From Segetibacter sp. 3557_3 (GTDB lineage Bacteria; Bacteroidota; Bacteroidia; Chitinophagales; Chitinophagaceae): a stretch of 64,000 bases of DNA. Below are positions 2,030 to 8,433 of the stretch, in pieces. Where the stretch lies: assembly GCF_004354985.1 (NCBI RefSeq), contig NZ_SMSK01000008.1, positions 62,001-126,000 of the forward strand, given 5' to 3'. The position numbers and the translations under genes were made by a program. The notes beneath the pieces were generated by a model. That model saw only the letters and a list, made by a program, of their open reading frames with translations. It had not been told where the DNA came from and did not search any database. Each line of letters opens with the position of its first letter. Within the stretch, counting starts at the first letter, position 1.

Positions 2030-3413
2030 ATGAAGAAATACGATGCGATAATTATCGGCTCAGGTCAGGCCGGAACACCGTTATCCAAAAAACTTGCAAA
2101 TGCAGGTTGGAACACTGCTTTAATTGAAAGTCGCTGGATTGGCGGAACCTGTATTAACGACGGGTGCACACCAACGAAAACAATGATTGCTTCTGCAAAG
2201 ATGGCCCGCCTTGCTTCCGAAAGCCACCAGCTTGGCATCAATATACCGGCCTACCAGGTAGACCTGCCGGCTATCGTCCGGCGGAAAAACGATATTGTGC
2301 AACGGTTTAGAGATGGTGCGCAAAAAGGGCTGGAGAAAACGCCAAACCTTGAAATCCTTTTTGGAAAAGCCCGGTTTACGGGCCCGAAAACCATCAACGT
2401 ATTCAGCGGCGGGGCTGAACCTATTGCCATCACTGCAGAAAAAATTTTTATTAATATTGGTACCACCACCCGTGTTCCCGACATCCAGGGCCTCGCCGAC
2501 ATTCCCTATCTGACCTCAACAACCATCCTAGATATCCCAGTTATTCCCGAACACCTTTTGATCATCGGTACGGGTTATATCGGGCTGGAATTTGGCCAGA
2601 TGTTCCTGCGATTTGGTAGCAAGGTGACGATGGTAGAAGCTTCATCCCAGCTGTTACACAAGGAAGATCGCGATGTTGCCGAGTGCCTCGAAAATATACT
2701 GGCGGCAGAGGGAATTACTTTTTACAAGAATGCCACTCCTGCAAGGTTCTCAAAAAACGATGAAGGTATTACGGCTTCAATAGCACACGGTAACGAAACC
2801 ATTGAACTCAACTGCTCCCATGTTCTTTTGGCAACCGGTAGAAGTCCGCAGACAATTGATCTCGGTGTGGAAAAGGCTGGTATAAAAGTGAATGAGAAAA
2901 AATTACATCGAAGTAAATGAATTCCTCGAAACATCGCAGCCAGGCGTTTACGCAATCGGCGATGTTAAGGGTGGGCCCGCCTTTACGCACGTTGCATACA
3001 ACGACCATGTGGTGTTGTGGAAGAATATCTTACAAGGTGGAAAGGTTTCGATTAAAAACAGGGTGGTACCTTACTGCATGTTTACCGATCCGCAACTCGG
3101 AAGGGTTGGGTTGTCCGAAACGGAAGCAAGAAAACACGGCCTGAACATAGAGGTTGCAGTATTGTCAATGGAGCACGTTGCAAGGGCAATTGAAATGGGG
3201 GATACCCGTGGCATCATGAAGGCGATTGTTGACACCGACACCAGGAAAATCCTCGGCGCTGCGATCATCGGAACGGATGGTGGCGAAATTATGTCTGTAT
3301 TGCAACTTGCTATGGCCGGGGGCATTACGGCCGACAACATTCGTGAAATGATGTTCGCACATCCCCTGTATGCCGAGTCACTGAACAACCTCTTTATGAA
3401 ATTAGATAAATAA
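2030..3413 (+). pseudogene. FAD-dependent pyridine nucleotide-disulfide oxidoreductase (mercuric reductase/RclA-like), frameshifted
   Basis: Class I flavoprotein disulfide reductase of about 461 aa if joined. The first frame (2030-2920) carries the FAD site GSGQAG (about 10-15), the redox pair GGTCINDGCTPTK (about 39-51) and the NAD(P)H site GTGYIGLEFG. The second frame (from about 2892) carries the second FAD motif VYAIGDVKGG and the dimerisation domain ending in FAHPLYAESLNNLF with the His/Glu pair. The frames meet at a run of six A (2897-2902). Removing one A restores a continuous reading ...VNEKNYIEVNEF..., as the family expects. There is no N-terminal HMA domain and no C-terminal Cys pair, so a true MerA is unlikely. 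The gene is 6 bp from both neighbours in an operon with an OpuC-type transporter. It may be a real lesion, a homopolymer error, or a slippage site. Confidence 0.85.
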
Positions 3414-3419
3414 TCAAGG

Positions 3420-4382
3420 TTGATAAAGCTAACACAGGTAAGTAAGCTGTACAACGGGAACCCGGCTGTAAACAACATTTCGTTCGAGGTCAAAGAAGGA
3501 GAAAACATGGTTTTGCTCGGTACCAGCGGCTGCGGTAAAACCACAACCCTTCGGATGATCAATCGATTGGTTGAACCTTCAGCTGGCATTATCGAAGTAA
3601 ACGGTACCAATGTCGGAGCCCAACAACGAGAGTCCCTTCGACGCGGCATTGGTTATGTTTTGCAGCATAACGGCCTTTTTCCGCATTATACCATAGCTGA
3701 GAATATTGGCCTTGTTCCTACCCTTCTCAAATGGAGTAAGAAAAAAACGCAGCAACGATCCGATGAGTTGCTTGAAAAATTACATCTGCCACCTGCGCAA
3801 TATGGAAAGTTGTACCCCGGTCAGCTCAGTGGCGGTCAGCAACAGCGGGTTGGACTCGCCCGGGCACTTGCTGCAAATCCTCCCGTTTTATTAATGGATG
3901 AACCTTTTGGTGCGCTGGATCCGGTTACCCGGACGGCCATAAAAAAAGAGTTTAGCGCGCTTGAAGAATTTCGAAAAAAAACCATAGTGCTTGTTACGCA
4001 CGACGTGCAGGAGGCCTTTGAACTTGGCGACCGCATTTGCCTGATGGATAAAGGTGAGATTGTACAAACAGGCAGCCCGGCCGAATTACTTTTTAAACCG
4101 GCAAATGCATTCGTCAGCGGTTTTTTAAACAACAACAGGTTGTCGCTCGAATTACAGGCCCTTACCCTCAACGACGTTTTTGCATTACTGCCACCAGGTC
4201 ACATGGAGGGAGAAGGGTTAAATATACAACCCGCAACAACCCTCTGGAGCAGCATGGAGCAGCTCGCTTCCCGTCACAGGGCTGATCAGATTGGTGTCGT
4301 AACCATTGGCGCGACAAAACATTTCGACATCGCACGGTTAATGGGCGCTTTTACCCTTTACAAAACCAGGCTCCATGGATGA
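3420..4382 (+). CDS. OpuC/ProV-type ABC transporter ATP-binding protein (possible EgtV)
   Basis: ATPase subunit of 320 aa of a quaternary-amine/osmolyte-type importer. Walker A is GTSGCGKTT (about 36-44), the signature is LSGGQQQRVGLARAL, Walker B is VLLMDEPFGALDP, and the H-loop is VTHD. The region after about residue 230 is a short degenerate tail rather than a clear pair of CBS domains. The only plausible start is TTG, 6 bp after the reductase stop. The stop overlaps the permease start by 8 bp (ATGGATGA), indicating translational coupling. The family normally imports glycine betaine, choline or carnitine. Because egtB and egtD follow the operon, the ergothioneine importer EgtUV is an attractive alternative, by context only. 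Confidence 0.92.
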   Translation: MIKLTQVSKLYNGNPAVNNISFEVKEGENMVLLGTSGCGKTTTLRMINRLVEPSAGIIEVNGTNVGAQQRESLRRGIGYVLQHNGLFPHYTIAENIGLVPTLLKWSKKKTQQRSDELLEKLHLPPAQYGKLYPGQLSGGQQQRVGLARALAANPPVLLMDEPFGALDPVTRTAIKKEFSALEEFRKKTIVLVTHDVQEAFELGDRICLMDKGEIVQTGSPAELLFKPANAFVSGFLNNNRLSLELQALTLNDVFALLPPGHMEGEGLNIQPATTLWSSMEQLASRHRADQIGVVTIGATKHFDIARLMGAFTLYKTRLHG

Positions 4383-5946
4383 ACCGCAAACATTGTGGCA
4401 ATTTTTTGCGCAACAATCGGGCAAAATACTCGAACAAACCTACGCGCATATCGGGCTCACTTTCGTTTCGTTATTCCTTTCGGTGCTTATCGGTGTTCCG
4501 CTGGGCATCTGGATTGCGAAGAACAAAAAATGGAGCTCCCCGGTCCTGGGTTTTGCCGGTGTTTTGCAAACCATTCCAAGCATTGCGCTGCTCGGTTTTA
4601 TGATTCCACTGCTTGGCATTGGCGCTAAACCGGCAATTGTTGCGCTGTTGTTGTATGCCCTGCTGCCGATCATACGTAACACCTATACCGGGATTATAGG
4701 GGTAAATGCTTCTATTACCGATGCGGCACGTGGCATGGGAATGAGTGGCTGGCAGGTACTTACAAAGGTGGAATTGCCACTTGCCATGCCCGTTTTGCTT
4801 GCGGGTATCAGAACGGCAACCGTGATTAACGTAGGTGTAGCCACCCTGGCGGCCTACATAGCCGCCGGCGGCCTCGGCGAGTTTATATTCGGCGGCATCG
4901 CTTTAAATAATACCCACATGATACTCGCAGGAGCCATCCCGGCGGCATTATTGGCCATCCTGTTCGACTTCCTTTTATCGCTTGCGCAACACCTCAACAT
5001 CCGGAAACTACGGGCAGCTTTGGTTTTGTTACCGATCATTTTAGTGCTGCTTTCATCGTTTTACCTCCTGCCCACGGTCCTGGGCAGCCGTATGCTTGCC
5101 GGCTTTACCCCCGAGTTCATGGGCCGCAGCGATGGCTACCTTGGACTAAAAGAAAAGTATAACCTGGATATCCGAACGGTAGTCATCAGCGATGCCGTTA
5201 TGTATAAAGCGGCCTTCGAAAAACAACTTGATGTAATCAGCGGCTACAGCACCGATGGGCGGCTGAAAGCATTCGACCTGGTTGTACTCGACGACGATAA
5301 AACTATCTTTCCGCCATATTACGCCGCCCCGGTAGTCCGGCACGAAGTTTTAGTTCAGTACCCCGAAGTCGAAAACACACTCAACCTGCTGTCGGGTAAA
5401 ATCAACGACTCGTTGATGACCGAAATGAATTACCAGGTTGACTACCTGAAACAAAGTCCCGAAAAGGTTGCGCAGGATTTCCTGGTCAGCAGGGGTCTTT
5501 ACCAGCCGCCAAGGGGTGGGAAAAAGGGCCTGATCCGGATGGGATCAAAAATATTTGGCGAACAATACATTCTTTTGCAACTCTATACAATGCTGCTGAG
5601 GGGTTACACCGAATTGGAAGTGGAAACAAAGACCGGACTCGGCGGAACGAAAATTTGCTTTGATGCCATACGAAATAACGAGATCGACCTTTACCCGGAA
5701 TATACCGGCACCGGGCTGCTGGTTTTATTGAAACCAACTAAAGCAACCCTTAACCGTATAATGTCCGATAAAGAGAAGGTATACGCTTATGTAAGCCGTG
5801 AGTTTTCCCGGCAGTACCAACTCGATTGGCTAAGACCCATTGGTTTTAATAACGCGTACGCGCTTATGATCCGTAAAGAAGATGCTGAAGCGCTGCAGAT
5901 TAGAACCATTTCCGACCTCAAGTTGTATATAGATCAACACGGCTAA
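4375..5946 (+). CDS. ABC permease fused to a circularly permuted OpuAC-type substrate-binding domain (EgtU/OpuCB-CC-like)
   Basis: A 523-aa two-part protein. Residues 1 to about 235 are a ProW/OpuCB-like permease with five to six membrane segments and the EAA-type loop around DAARGMGMSGWQVLTKVELP (about 116-135). The remainder is a ProX/OsmF-type binding domain, exported by fusion. The lobes are in swapped order. The normally C-terminal part comes first (about 242-376: GFTPEFMGRSDGY, YSTDGRLKAFDL, DDDKTIFPPY, APVVR). The normally N-terminal part follows after a short linker (about 387-523: RMGSKIFGEQ, GLGGTKICFDAI, EIDLYPEYTGTG, PIGFNNAYAL, TISDL). The protein ends exactly where the standard fold would run into GFTPEF. 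Permease/binding fusions are known in Bacillota EgtU and OpuC relatives. Substrate is unproven: osmolyte or ergothioneine. Confidence 0.93.
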   Translation: MDEPQTLWQFFAQQSGKILEQTYAHIGLTFVSLFLSVLIGVPLGIWIAKNKKWSSPVLGFAGVLQTIPSIALLGFMIPLLGIGAKPAIVALLLYALLPIIRNTYTGIIGVNASITDAARGMGMSGWQVLTKVELPLAMPVLLAGIRTATVINVGVATLAAYIAAGGLGEFIFGGIALNNTHMILAGAIPAALLAILFDFLLSLAQHLNIRKLRAALVLLPIILVLLSSFYLLPTVLGSRMLAGFTPEFMGRSDGYLGLKEKYNLDIRTVVISDAVMYKAAFEKQLDVISGYSTDGRLKAFDLVVLDDDKTIFPPYYAAPVVRHEVLVQYPEVENTLNLLSGKINDSLMTEMNYQVDYLKQSPEKVAQDFLVSRGLYQPPRGGKKGLIRMGSKIFGEQYILLQLYTMLLRGYTELEVETKTGLGGTKICFDAIRNNEIDLYPEYTGTGLLVLLKPTKATLNRIMSDKEKVYAYVSREFSRQYQLDWLRPIGFNNAYALMIRKEDAEALQIRTISDLKLYIDQHG

Positions 5947-6234: not shown

Positions 6235-7392
6235 ATGAGCACATCATCCCTTTTAGATAAGTATTTAGCGGTCAGACAAAGAACAGAAACCATCTGCGGG
6301 CCCCTTCAGAAAGAAGATTATGTAGTGCAGCCGGTTGTCGATGTGAGTCCTCCAAAGTGGCATATTGGTCATACCACCTGGTTCTTTGAAACCTTTTTGC
6401 TAAAAGAACATGCAATGGGTTATAAGGAGTATGACCCTAACTACAATTACGTTTTCAATAGTTATTACGAAACGGTTGGGGCTCGTGTAATTCGAACCGA
6501 CCGGGGTAATCTTAGCCGCCCGACGGTTGATGACGTTTACAAATACCGCAAGTATGTAGATGAGGCCATGGTAAAGTTTCTTAGCGATGGTTATCCTGAA
6601 ACCCTGACCGATACCATCAACCTGGGTTTGAACCACGAAGAGCAACACCAGGAATTATTATGGACGGATATCAAATATATTCTTGGGCATAACCCGCTGT
6701 TTCCGCCCTATGATGCTGCAACGAAATCCGCCGGTGGGGCTGTTGAAGCCGGTAACATGATGAGCGTAAGTGAAGGGTTATACGATATTGGTTTTGAGGG
6801 TACCGGTTTTTGTTTCGACAACGAACTGGGCAGGCACAAAGTTTACCTGCCCGGTTTTAAGATCGCTAAAGAGCTGGTCACAAACGGGGAATACCTTACG
6901 TTTATCAATGCCGGCGGGTACAGGGATTTCCGGTTTTGGCATGCAGAAGGTTGGGATTGGGTCAAATCAAATGCGGTTCAATGCCCGATGTATTGGCATC
7001 TTGTCAATGGCGGATGGCAGCACTTTACCCTAAGAGGTTTGGAACCGCTTGACGAGGCCGGTACTTTAAACCACATAAGCTTTTACGAAGCTGCCGCATT
7101 TGCTGCCTGGAAGGGCATGCGATTACCAACGGAGTTTGAGTGGGAAATCGCAGCCCCGCAGCTGAATTGGGGAACCAGGTGGGAATGGACCGAAAGCGCT
7201 TATCTTCCTTACCCGGGTTTTAGCAAAGCACCGGGGGCAATTGGCGAATACAATGGAAAATTCATGGTTAATCAAAAGGTTTTACGGGGTGCCTCCGAAG
7301 TTACCTCACCGGGGCATAGTCGCATAACCTACCGAAACTTTTTTCATCCGCAACTTCGCTGGCAATATACAGGCATAAGGCTCGCACAATAG
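6235..7392 (+). CDS. egtB: Ergothioneine biosynthesis sulfoxide synthase EgtB
   Basis: Non-haem iron enzyme of 385 aa that joins trimethylhistidine (hercynine) to a thiol (cysteine or gamma-glutamylcysteine) using oxygen. The N-terminal DinB-like half carries the expected iron ligands: His46 in HIGHTTWFFE, and His134 and His138 in NHEEQHQEL. The C-terminal formylglycine-generating-enzyme/sulfatase-modifying fold contains EFEWEIAAPQ..WEWTES and ends VLRGAS..HSRITYRNFFHP..RWQYTGIRLA. It starts at ATG. EgtD begins 7 bp after the stop, so the two are almost certainly co-transcribed. No egtA, egtC or egtE is seen nearby, as is usual outside actinobacteria. Confidence 0.95.
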   Translation: MSTSSLLDKYLAVRQRTETICGPLQKEDYVVQPVVDVSPPKWHIGHTTWFFETFLLKEHAMGYKEYDPNYNYVFNSYYETVGARVIRTDRGNLSRPTVDDVYKYRKYVDEAMVKFLSDGYPETLTDTINLGLNHEEQHQELLWTDIKYILGHNPLFPPYDAATKSAGGAVEAGNMMSVSEGLYDIGFEGTGFCFDNELGRHKVYLPGFKIAKELVTNGEYLTFINAGGYRDFRFWHAEGWDWVKSNAVQCPMYWHLVNGGWQHFTLRGLEPLDEAGTLNHISFYEAAAFAAWKGMRLPTEFEWEIAAPQLNWGTRWEWTESAYLPYPGFSKAPGAIGEYNGKFMVNQKVLRGASEVTSPGHSRITYRNFFHPQLRWQYTGIRLAQ

Positions 7393-7398
7393 CTCATT

Positions 7399-8433
7399 AT
7401 GGAACAACTCACCGCAACAAGCAAAACACTGTCTGAATGTACTCCCGAGGCAGGTAGGCTCTCCACGGGACCAGGGAAAGTCCGGCTGACAGCCGACAGT
7501 CCTTTCTTACAGTCCGTATTGAAGGGCCTTTGCTCCAAAAGCAAATTTCTTGAGTCGAAGTATTTCTACGACGAGGCAGGTGATGAATTGTTCAGGCAGA
7601 TCATGGCTTGTCCTGAGTACTATCCAACCGATTGTGAGCACGAGATTTTTAGCCGGCAAACCGCGTATCTCGCTTCAGCACTCATTCCAGACTCGGAAGA
7701 CTTTGACGTGATTGAATTAGGTGCCGGAGACGCAACCAAATCCATCTTTTTACTTTCAGAGATCCTGGGCCGGAATCAAAAGTTTACGTATTTGCCGGTC
7801 GACATTTCTTCAAACGTAATCAACAACCTACAAACGCAATTACCAGCGAGATTGCCCGGGCTCCGGGTGACAGGGCTGAACGGCGAATACTTCCAGATGC
7901 TGGCGAAAGCAACCGAACGCCCTGCAAAACGTAAGATTGTTTTATTTCTTGGTGGCAACATAGGCAACATTCCGTACGAAGAGGCCCGGCAGTTCTGCCT
8001 CAAGATGCGTGAACACCTTGCCAAAGGTGACCTCGTGCTGATTGGGTTCGATCTCAAGAAAGATCCCCGGGTTATTTTAAGTGCCTATAACGACAAAGCA
8101 GGTCTTACCCGGGATTTTAACCTTAACCTGCTTAAGCGTATCAACAGGGAACTTGGGGCAAATTTCAACCTCGACAACTTTAGTCATTATCCAACGTATG
8201 ACCCAGCCAATGGGGCTTGTAAAAGTTACCTGGTATGCAACATCAGCCAGGAAGTAAATATCGCCGGTGAAACCATCCGCTTCAGGCAGGGTGAAACGGT
8301 ATTTATGGAAATATCCCAAAAGTATACCCCTGACCAAACAGATGAACTTGCCCACCAATGTGGTTTCAGGCGATCCGCTCATTTTTATGACTCCAGGCAG
8401 TGGTTTCTTGATGCCGTTTGGGAGTGTATATAA
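7399..8433 (+). CDS. egtD: L-histidine N(alpha)-methyltransferase EgtD
   Basis: SAM-dependent methyltransferase of 344 aa that trimethylates histidine to hercynine, the first step of ergothioneine synthesis. The SAM-binding loop is VIELGAGDATKS (about 104-115). Other family landmarks are KYFYDEAGDELFRQI near the N-terminus, ILFLGGNIGN-like FLGGNIGNIPYEEA, and the C-terminal MEISQKYT..FYDSRQWFLDAVWE. Length matches the family (about 320-350). It follows egtB by 6 bp, forming a compact egtBD unit downstream of the OpuC-type transporter. Confidence 0.95.
   Translation: MEQLTATSKTLSECTPEAGRLSTGPGKVRLTADSPFLQSVLKGLCSKSKFLESKYFYDEAGDELFRQIMACPEYYPTDCEHEIFSRQTAYLASALIPDSEDFDVIELGAGDATKSIFLLSEILGRNQKFTYLPVDISSNVINNLQTQLPARLPGLRVTGLNGEYFQMLAKATERPAKRKIVLFLGGNIGNIPYEEARQFCLKMREHLAKGDLVLIGFDLKKDPRVILSAYNDKAGLTRDFNLNLLKRINRELGANFNLDNFSHYPTYDPANGACKSYLVCNISQEVNIAGETIRFRQGETVFMEISQKYTPDQTDELAHQCGFRRSAHFYDSRQWFLDAVWECI

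Follow-up and report, generated by a model that had tools for sequence, protein, structure and literature searches.

In EgtU (EgtUBC) of Streptococcus pneumoniae, which imports ergothioneine and does not make it, a permease and an OpuAC-type substrate-binding domain share one chain and are served by a separate ATPase (PMC9732360, available text; PDB 7txl, 9egi). The chain runs from the permease to the N-terminal half of the binding domain (N-half) and on to its C-terminal half (C-half), an order abbreviated here as P-N-C. OpuA of Lactococcus lactis (PDB 7ahh, 3l6g) likewise has a permease with a C-terminal binding domain, which follows the order of Escherichia coli ProX and is not permuted. 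OpuAC of Bacillus subtilis (PDB 2b4l, 2b4m), a glycine betaine binder with a Trp-prism pocket, is described as a lipid-tethered separate protein, and the words "permut", "swap" and "dislocation" are absent from the available text of that description (PMC2861598). Its lobe connectivity is permuted. A further natural circular permutant is TpMglB-2 of Treponema pallidum (Cluster Bc), whose authors considered, in the part of the paper available, that the topology is possibly an adaptation to membrane anchoring (PMC4990184); it is, however, a Cluster B sugar binder and thus of another domain class. In the open-access literature we found no paper treating a circularly permuted ABC substrate-binding domain together with OpuAC, and none on an ergothioneine transporter with egtB/egtD in Bacteroidetes.

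The locus described here lies in the window, the whole stretch of 64,000 nucleotides of Segetibacter sp. 3557_3 that was analysed (Table 1). Its fusion protein resembles EgtU in uniting permease and binding domain on a single chain beside a separate ATPase, whereas the order of its segments is permease, C-half, N-half (P-C-N). It matches B. subtilis OpuAC in lobe connectivity and seam region, and L. lactis OpuA in the fold of the permease. Bacteroidota also possess fusions of the same three segments in the order N-half, C-half, permease (N-C-P; loci L130-L160), in which the halves stand in canonical order, the binding domain is N-terminal (31/31) and the sequences occupy a separate tree branch.

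Table 1. Features of the transporter locus and of two related loci. Positions are those of the window unless a locus is named.
Feature	Position	Strand	Basis or remark
DUF427 protein, 93 aa	1742..2023	+	PF04248, 8.7e-34
FAD-dependent disulfide oxidoreductase	2030..3413	+	two frames, with the split near 2900
ABC ATPase of the transporter	3420..4382	+	8-base overlap with the fusion
Permease / permuted substrate-binding domain fusion, 523 aa, permease - C-half - N-half	4375..5946	+	frame, PDB alignment, motifs, model
Permease core, residues 1-206, BPD_transp_1	4375..4992	+	alignment with permeases of OpuA and MetI
Extra hydrophobic helix, residues 209-230	4999..5064	+	model helix 209-230; hydropathy 2.62 at 214-232
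C-terminal half of binding domain, residues 239-376, first	5089..5502	+	aligns to EgtUC 138-275
New linker, about residues 373-384	5491..5526	+	modelled coil; variable, gapped in the alignment of relatives
N-terminal half of binding domain, residues 385-523, last	5527..5943	+	385-517 aligns to EgtUC 7-134
EgtB, ergothioneine biosynthesis	6235..7392	+	TIGR03440, 531.9 bits, cut-off 360
EgtD, histidine N-alpha-methyltransferase	7399..8433	+	PF10017, 6.4e-97; TIGR03438, 285.0 bits, just below cut-off 290.9
DUF427 protein behind EgtD, locus L166	13344-13841	-	genome without full EgtB
DUF427 protein behind EgtD, locus L169	5297-5785	+	genome without full EgtB

Order of the binding-domain halves and the anchored lobe

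A first-pass annotation of the sequence had described the binding-domain blocks as standing in swapped order within one open frame, and both statements hold. The frame runs uninterrupted from ATG to stop, so that no frameshift artefact is involved, and the ten motifs listed in that annotation were found where it had placed them; among them, the front block has GFTPEF at residue 243, YSTDG at 291, FPPY at 312 and APVVR at 318, and the rear block GSKIFGEQ at 390, GLGGT at 421, YPEYTGTG at 440, FNNAYAL at 491 and TISDL at 511. Pfam places BPD_transp_1 at residues 40-213, and the OpuAC family (PF04069) is reached in two stretches with 178.6 bits against a cut-off of 21.2, the better stretch (residues 242-370) corresponding to profile positions 117-255 of 257. 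The best sequence match in the PDB is EgtUC (9egi, 8.3e-52): residues 239-376 of the fusion correspond to positions 138-275 of its chain (i-E 3.4e-31) and residues 385-517 to positions 7-134 (i-E 1.3e-17). The two matches thus run in reverse of the EgtUC chain, which identifies the halves as swapped. Moreover, residues 387-523 match positions 5-136 of the 283 of the NCBIfam OsmF profile; the OsmF equivalog NF049931 itself is not reached (115.9 bits, cut-off 400). Aligned separately to the family, the N-half to OsmF and both halves to EgtUC, the blocks are therefore not in the normal order. The protein terminates behind the TISDL helix (TISDL-KLYIDQHG, then stop), exactly at the seam where a canonical chain would go on into GFTPEF.

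The predicted structure (mean pLDDT 83.7, pTM 0.68) leads to the same topology, as it is matched end to end and in sequence order by the permuted OpuAC. The canonical chains of EgtUC and ProX are not among the 50 structural matches listed for the model, which does not indicate a different fold since a sequential aligner performs poorly on permuted pairs. In the model, the old C-terminal helix (362-372) passes through a short coil into the old N-terminal strand (385-390), in agreement with the earlier proposal that a new linker joins the old termini.

The same order recurs in relatives. It was found in 34/34 loci composed of the window copy and 33 relatives (L001-L034, of which L010 is cut by a contig end), in 80/80 loci with Bacteroidota titles and in 25/25 refetched loci, and this identity of motif order rules out chance and bears out the reading as a true circular permutation, also in other Bacteroidota, where the annotation had proposed to look for it. 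The loci were chosen as the best whole-protein matches, a choice that favours the permuted order; the set of 80 comprises the best 80 of at least 585 contig stretches encoding a relative, all Bacteroidota by title, and overlaps in part with the set of 25, so that their 105 loci are not independent genomes. Twenty aligned permuted relatives range from 76% down to 48% identity to the window protein, and a class sample (20 of 395 genomes) added five near-full-length matches as candidates for this order. One relative, L020 (genome G135), has a single in-frame TAA, which may mark a copy in decay or an error.

Among the 140 three-segment ORFs of L044-L186, 105 are P-C-N, 31 N-C-P and 4 P-N-C. The N-C-P order is that of 31/31 fetched relatives of this second type, from the phylum sample of 395 genomes, at least 31 of which carry it, and P-N-C that of 4/4 ORFs from Enterococcus faecium, Ligilactobacillus salivarius, Fusobacterium vincentii and Qipengyuania citrea. 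In the plasmid collection, 7/739 records cover at least 80% of the query at 1e-15 and 0/150 do so at 1e-30; the six records parsed gave four fused ORFs in P-N-C order and two free-standing N-C binding proteins. In E. faecium and L. salivarius (L124, L125) an NAD(P)/FAD oxidoreductase gene follows the P-N-C fusion and its ATPase, echoing by position only the oxidoreductase of the Bacteroidota cluster.

The permutation also bears on which lobe is held at the membrane. In S. pneumoniae EgtUC, lobe D1 is formed by residues 233-331 and 445-506 and lobe D2 by 341-432 (PMC9732360, available text). Residues E375, R379 and D381 of this protein are positions 146, 150 and 152 of the 9egi chain, an offset of 229 that places the permutation cut at about 363/367, inside D2. 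Accordingly, the window protein has a continuous D1 (about 317-485) and a D2 composed of both chain ends (about 239-304 and 495-523), which makes D2 the membrane-anchored lobe. The extra helix would bring the chain back to the periplasm, and about ten residues separate it from the first D2 strand, LAGFTPEF. The suggestion that one lobe is fixed to the membrane differently is thus upheld at the level of sequence, where D2 appears to be tethered instead of the D1 of the usual fusion, and such a tether may alter docking or closure. Taken together, the observation is confirmed, and its first reading as a permease-fused, circularly permuted importer of the OpuC/EgtU type in Bacteroidota is supported as correct.

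Ergothioneine genes, binding pocket and substrate

In the set of 80 loci, the transporter is accompanied by the ATPase in 77, EgtB in 76 and EgtD in 75. The FAD oxidoreductase occurs in 58, and the next commonest cluster of neighbours of at least 120 aa in 17/80. The DUF427 gene, too short for this clustering, is present in 32/80 of these loci, in 10/25 other permuted loci and in 1/31 N-C-P loci. EgtB and EgtD are both missing from L062, L080, L100 and L103, and EgtD only from L078. L062, L078 and L080 are stretches cut by contig ends; in L100 and L103 the genes are truly missing from the side covered, as L100 is full-length and L103 has 5.6 kb downstream. The pair lies downstream as EgtB-EgtD in some groups and upstream as EgtD-EgtB in Chryseobacterium, and because gene order varies in this way the linkage is not mere synteny. 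The frame split of the oxidoreductase in the window falls at an A-rich run and may be a sequencing error or a real loss; the three homologues compared from related loci are single frames.

The association extends to whole genomes. An EgtD match was found in 136 of the 395 genomes of the phylum sample (106 over the cut-off, 8 weak with E above 1e-15), namely in 22/22 genomes with the permuted transporter against 114/373 others (Fisher 2e-11 with genomes treated as independent; by genus 12/12, 1.2e-5). EgtD lies within about 10 kb of the transporter in 16/22 permuted genomes and farther away or elsewhere in 6/22. Of the N-C-P genomes (at least 31), 30 of the 31 listed match EgtD, 6 of 31 close by. 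For either type of fused transporter, EgtD is thus present in 52/53 genomes of the sample, and up to 84 of the 136 EgtD-matching genomes showed no fused transporter. EgtB exceeds its cut-off in 20/22 permuted genomes. In the other two, G416 (L166, no EgtB) and G136 (L169, a weak match), EgtD, DUF427, ATPase and permuted fusion still stand together; perhaps hercynine is the end product there, or another enzyme inserts the sulfur.

Pocket positions were mapped from the available text of PMC9732360 onto 106 sequences, the 105 P-C-N ORFs and the window protein. The latter carries the clamp and cage residues K392, T446, R251, N493, Y495, Y291, Y315 and Y443; K392, T425, Y443, T446, N493, Y495, E247, R251, D253 and Y315 are identical in 106/106, and Y291 is Tyr in 96/106 and Ser in 10/106. 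The cage and carboxylate residues are common to EgtU: all seven of its set (K242, T296, N339, Y341, R379, Y419, Y443) are present in the window protein and in 106/106 sequences, save Y419 in 96/106. In contrast to the Trp prism of B. subtilis OpuAC, Tyr and Asn but no Trp occupy the cage positions taken from EgtUC. EgtU differs, however, at G244, F293 and Y337, which are replaced by F394 (102 F and 4 Q of 106), Y443 (106/106) and F491 (106/106). In the part of PMC9732360 available, G244 and the Y-to-F switch are said to contribute to the affinity of EgtU for ergothioneine, the buried waters would be disturbed by a Phe at the G244 position, and the F/Y/F state is that of the glycine-betaine binder AfProX. 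F/Y/F is also found in 29/29 N-C-P fusions. In our own reading of the alignment, 8dp6, which we take to be the ergothioneine-binding domain of Helicobacter pylori, has Ser at the G244 position followed by Tyr and Phe, and the last two EgtU markers may therefore be dispensable for ergothioneine. With cage and clamp kept and the EgtU markers not, the pocket predicts a betaine ligand and not specifically ergothioneine.

This pocket speaks for a general glycine betaine/choline importer, serving osmoprotection or the supply of methyl groups and having a permuted domain and a loose link to egtB-egtD, for example through methyl donors or a stress response. F394, Y443 and F491 match AfProX and not EgtU (PMC9732360, available text), and the best NCBIfam match of the ATPase is the ProV subfamily (betaine/proline/choline), at 295.7 bits below the cut-off of 326.6. 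Yet EgtD accompanies both transporter types almost throughout, and no CBS domain was found among the Pfam matches of the ATPase, whereas the osmosensing OpuA ATPase has a CBS pair (PMC2861598, available text). We consider this explanation rather unlikely, though it is the strongest competitor. Context is weighed above pocket because the fused transporters go with EgtD in nearly every genome, while many EgtD genomes do without them.

The most likely role of the permuted importer is hence in ergothioneine metabolism, from which its putative substrate comes, and we put at about 0.6 the probability that the fusion is a subunit of a betaine-type ABC importer with a naturally circularly permuted domain and a substrate of that metabolism. 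The ligand on which the binding domain would close is a trimethylammonium carboxylate, gripped by the cage of Tyr and Asn and the clamp of Lys, Thr and Arg, and the loaded domain would dock on a permease dimer to be emptied by the adjoining ATPase. Judging by gene context, the substrate may be ergothioneine, hercynine or another betaine of ergothioneine metabolism, and these bacteria would then make the compound and also take it up or recapture it. A more specific proposal, tentative and somewhat short of even odds, is that ergothioneine-making Bacteroidota keep a dedicated ergothioneine/hercynine importer with egtB-egtD, often also with the oxidoreductase and DUF427, with a permuted domain, the opposite lobe anchored and a pocket unlike that of EgtU, by which producers recapture or share the thiol.

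Descent of the permutation

The binding-domain tree was built from 66 chosen rows, covering a sixteenth of the titled loci, with the halves set in canonical order. One branch (89/95) sets the 31 permuted rows apart together and another (99/97) the 29 N-C-P rows, and the permuted clade sits among canonical relatives, OpuAC being outside the tree. A permease-only tree (73 rows) requires two changes for the permuted group, since long-branch rows fall among the permuted ones. As far as these alignments go, a single origin of the permuted Bacteroidota domains is supported, though not proven. It may have been one event in the OpuC/EgtU branch, in which a permease-N-C fusion underwent domain duplication followed by partial loss. 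A tandem-domain intermediate, with the N-half or the C-half doubled within a frame, was seen in 0/140 three-segment ORFs. Derivation by rotating an N-C-permease fusion was rejected by logic, as no rotation of N-C-P gives P-C-N.

The identical topology and corresponding seam region could also mean that the permuted order is old and common to B. subtilis OpuAC by descent. Over the structural alignment, however, identity to OpuAC is only 15-16%, against 35.6% (N-half) and 43.0% (C-half) to the canonical E. faecium protein, and the position of the permuted clade among canonical relatives, in a tree without OpuAC, points the same way. A separate event is therefore favoured, and common descent with OpuAC appears improbable. 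Finally, an artefact of assembly or frame, or a gene in decay, for which the split oxidoreductase next door and the in-frame TAA of G135 might speak, has a negligible probability given the single open frame, unbroken matches to most of its product at 48-77% identity in many genomes and conserved pocket residues; frameshift, stop and misassembly were rejected on the same order in 80/80 and 25/25 loci.

What was known is the permuted OpuAC of Bacillus; what is new is a permease-fused permuted form across many Bacteroidota, usually beside ergothioneine genes. With the tether moved from D1 to D2 and the modelled fold kept, these proteins offer a natural test of the role of the anchored lobe in docking and closure. 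That betaine-binding proteins are permuted both in Bacillus OpuAC and in these fusions suggests a permissive cut site, useful to designers of sensors. Moreover, the pocket has specificity residues different from those of EgtU and is open to comparison, and the tight link to egtB-egtD suggests that producers of ergothioneine run a dedicated uptake system too.
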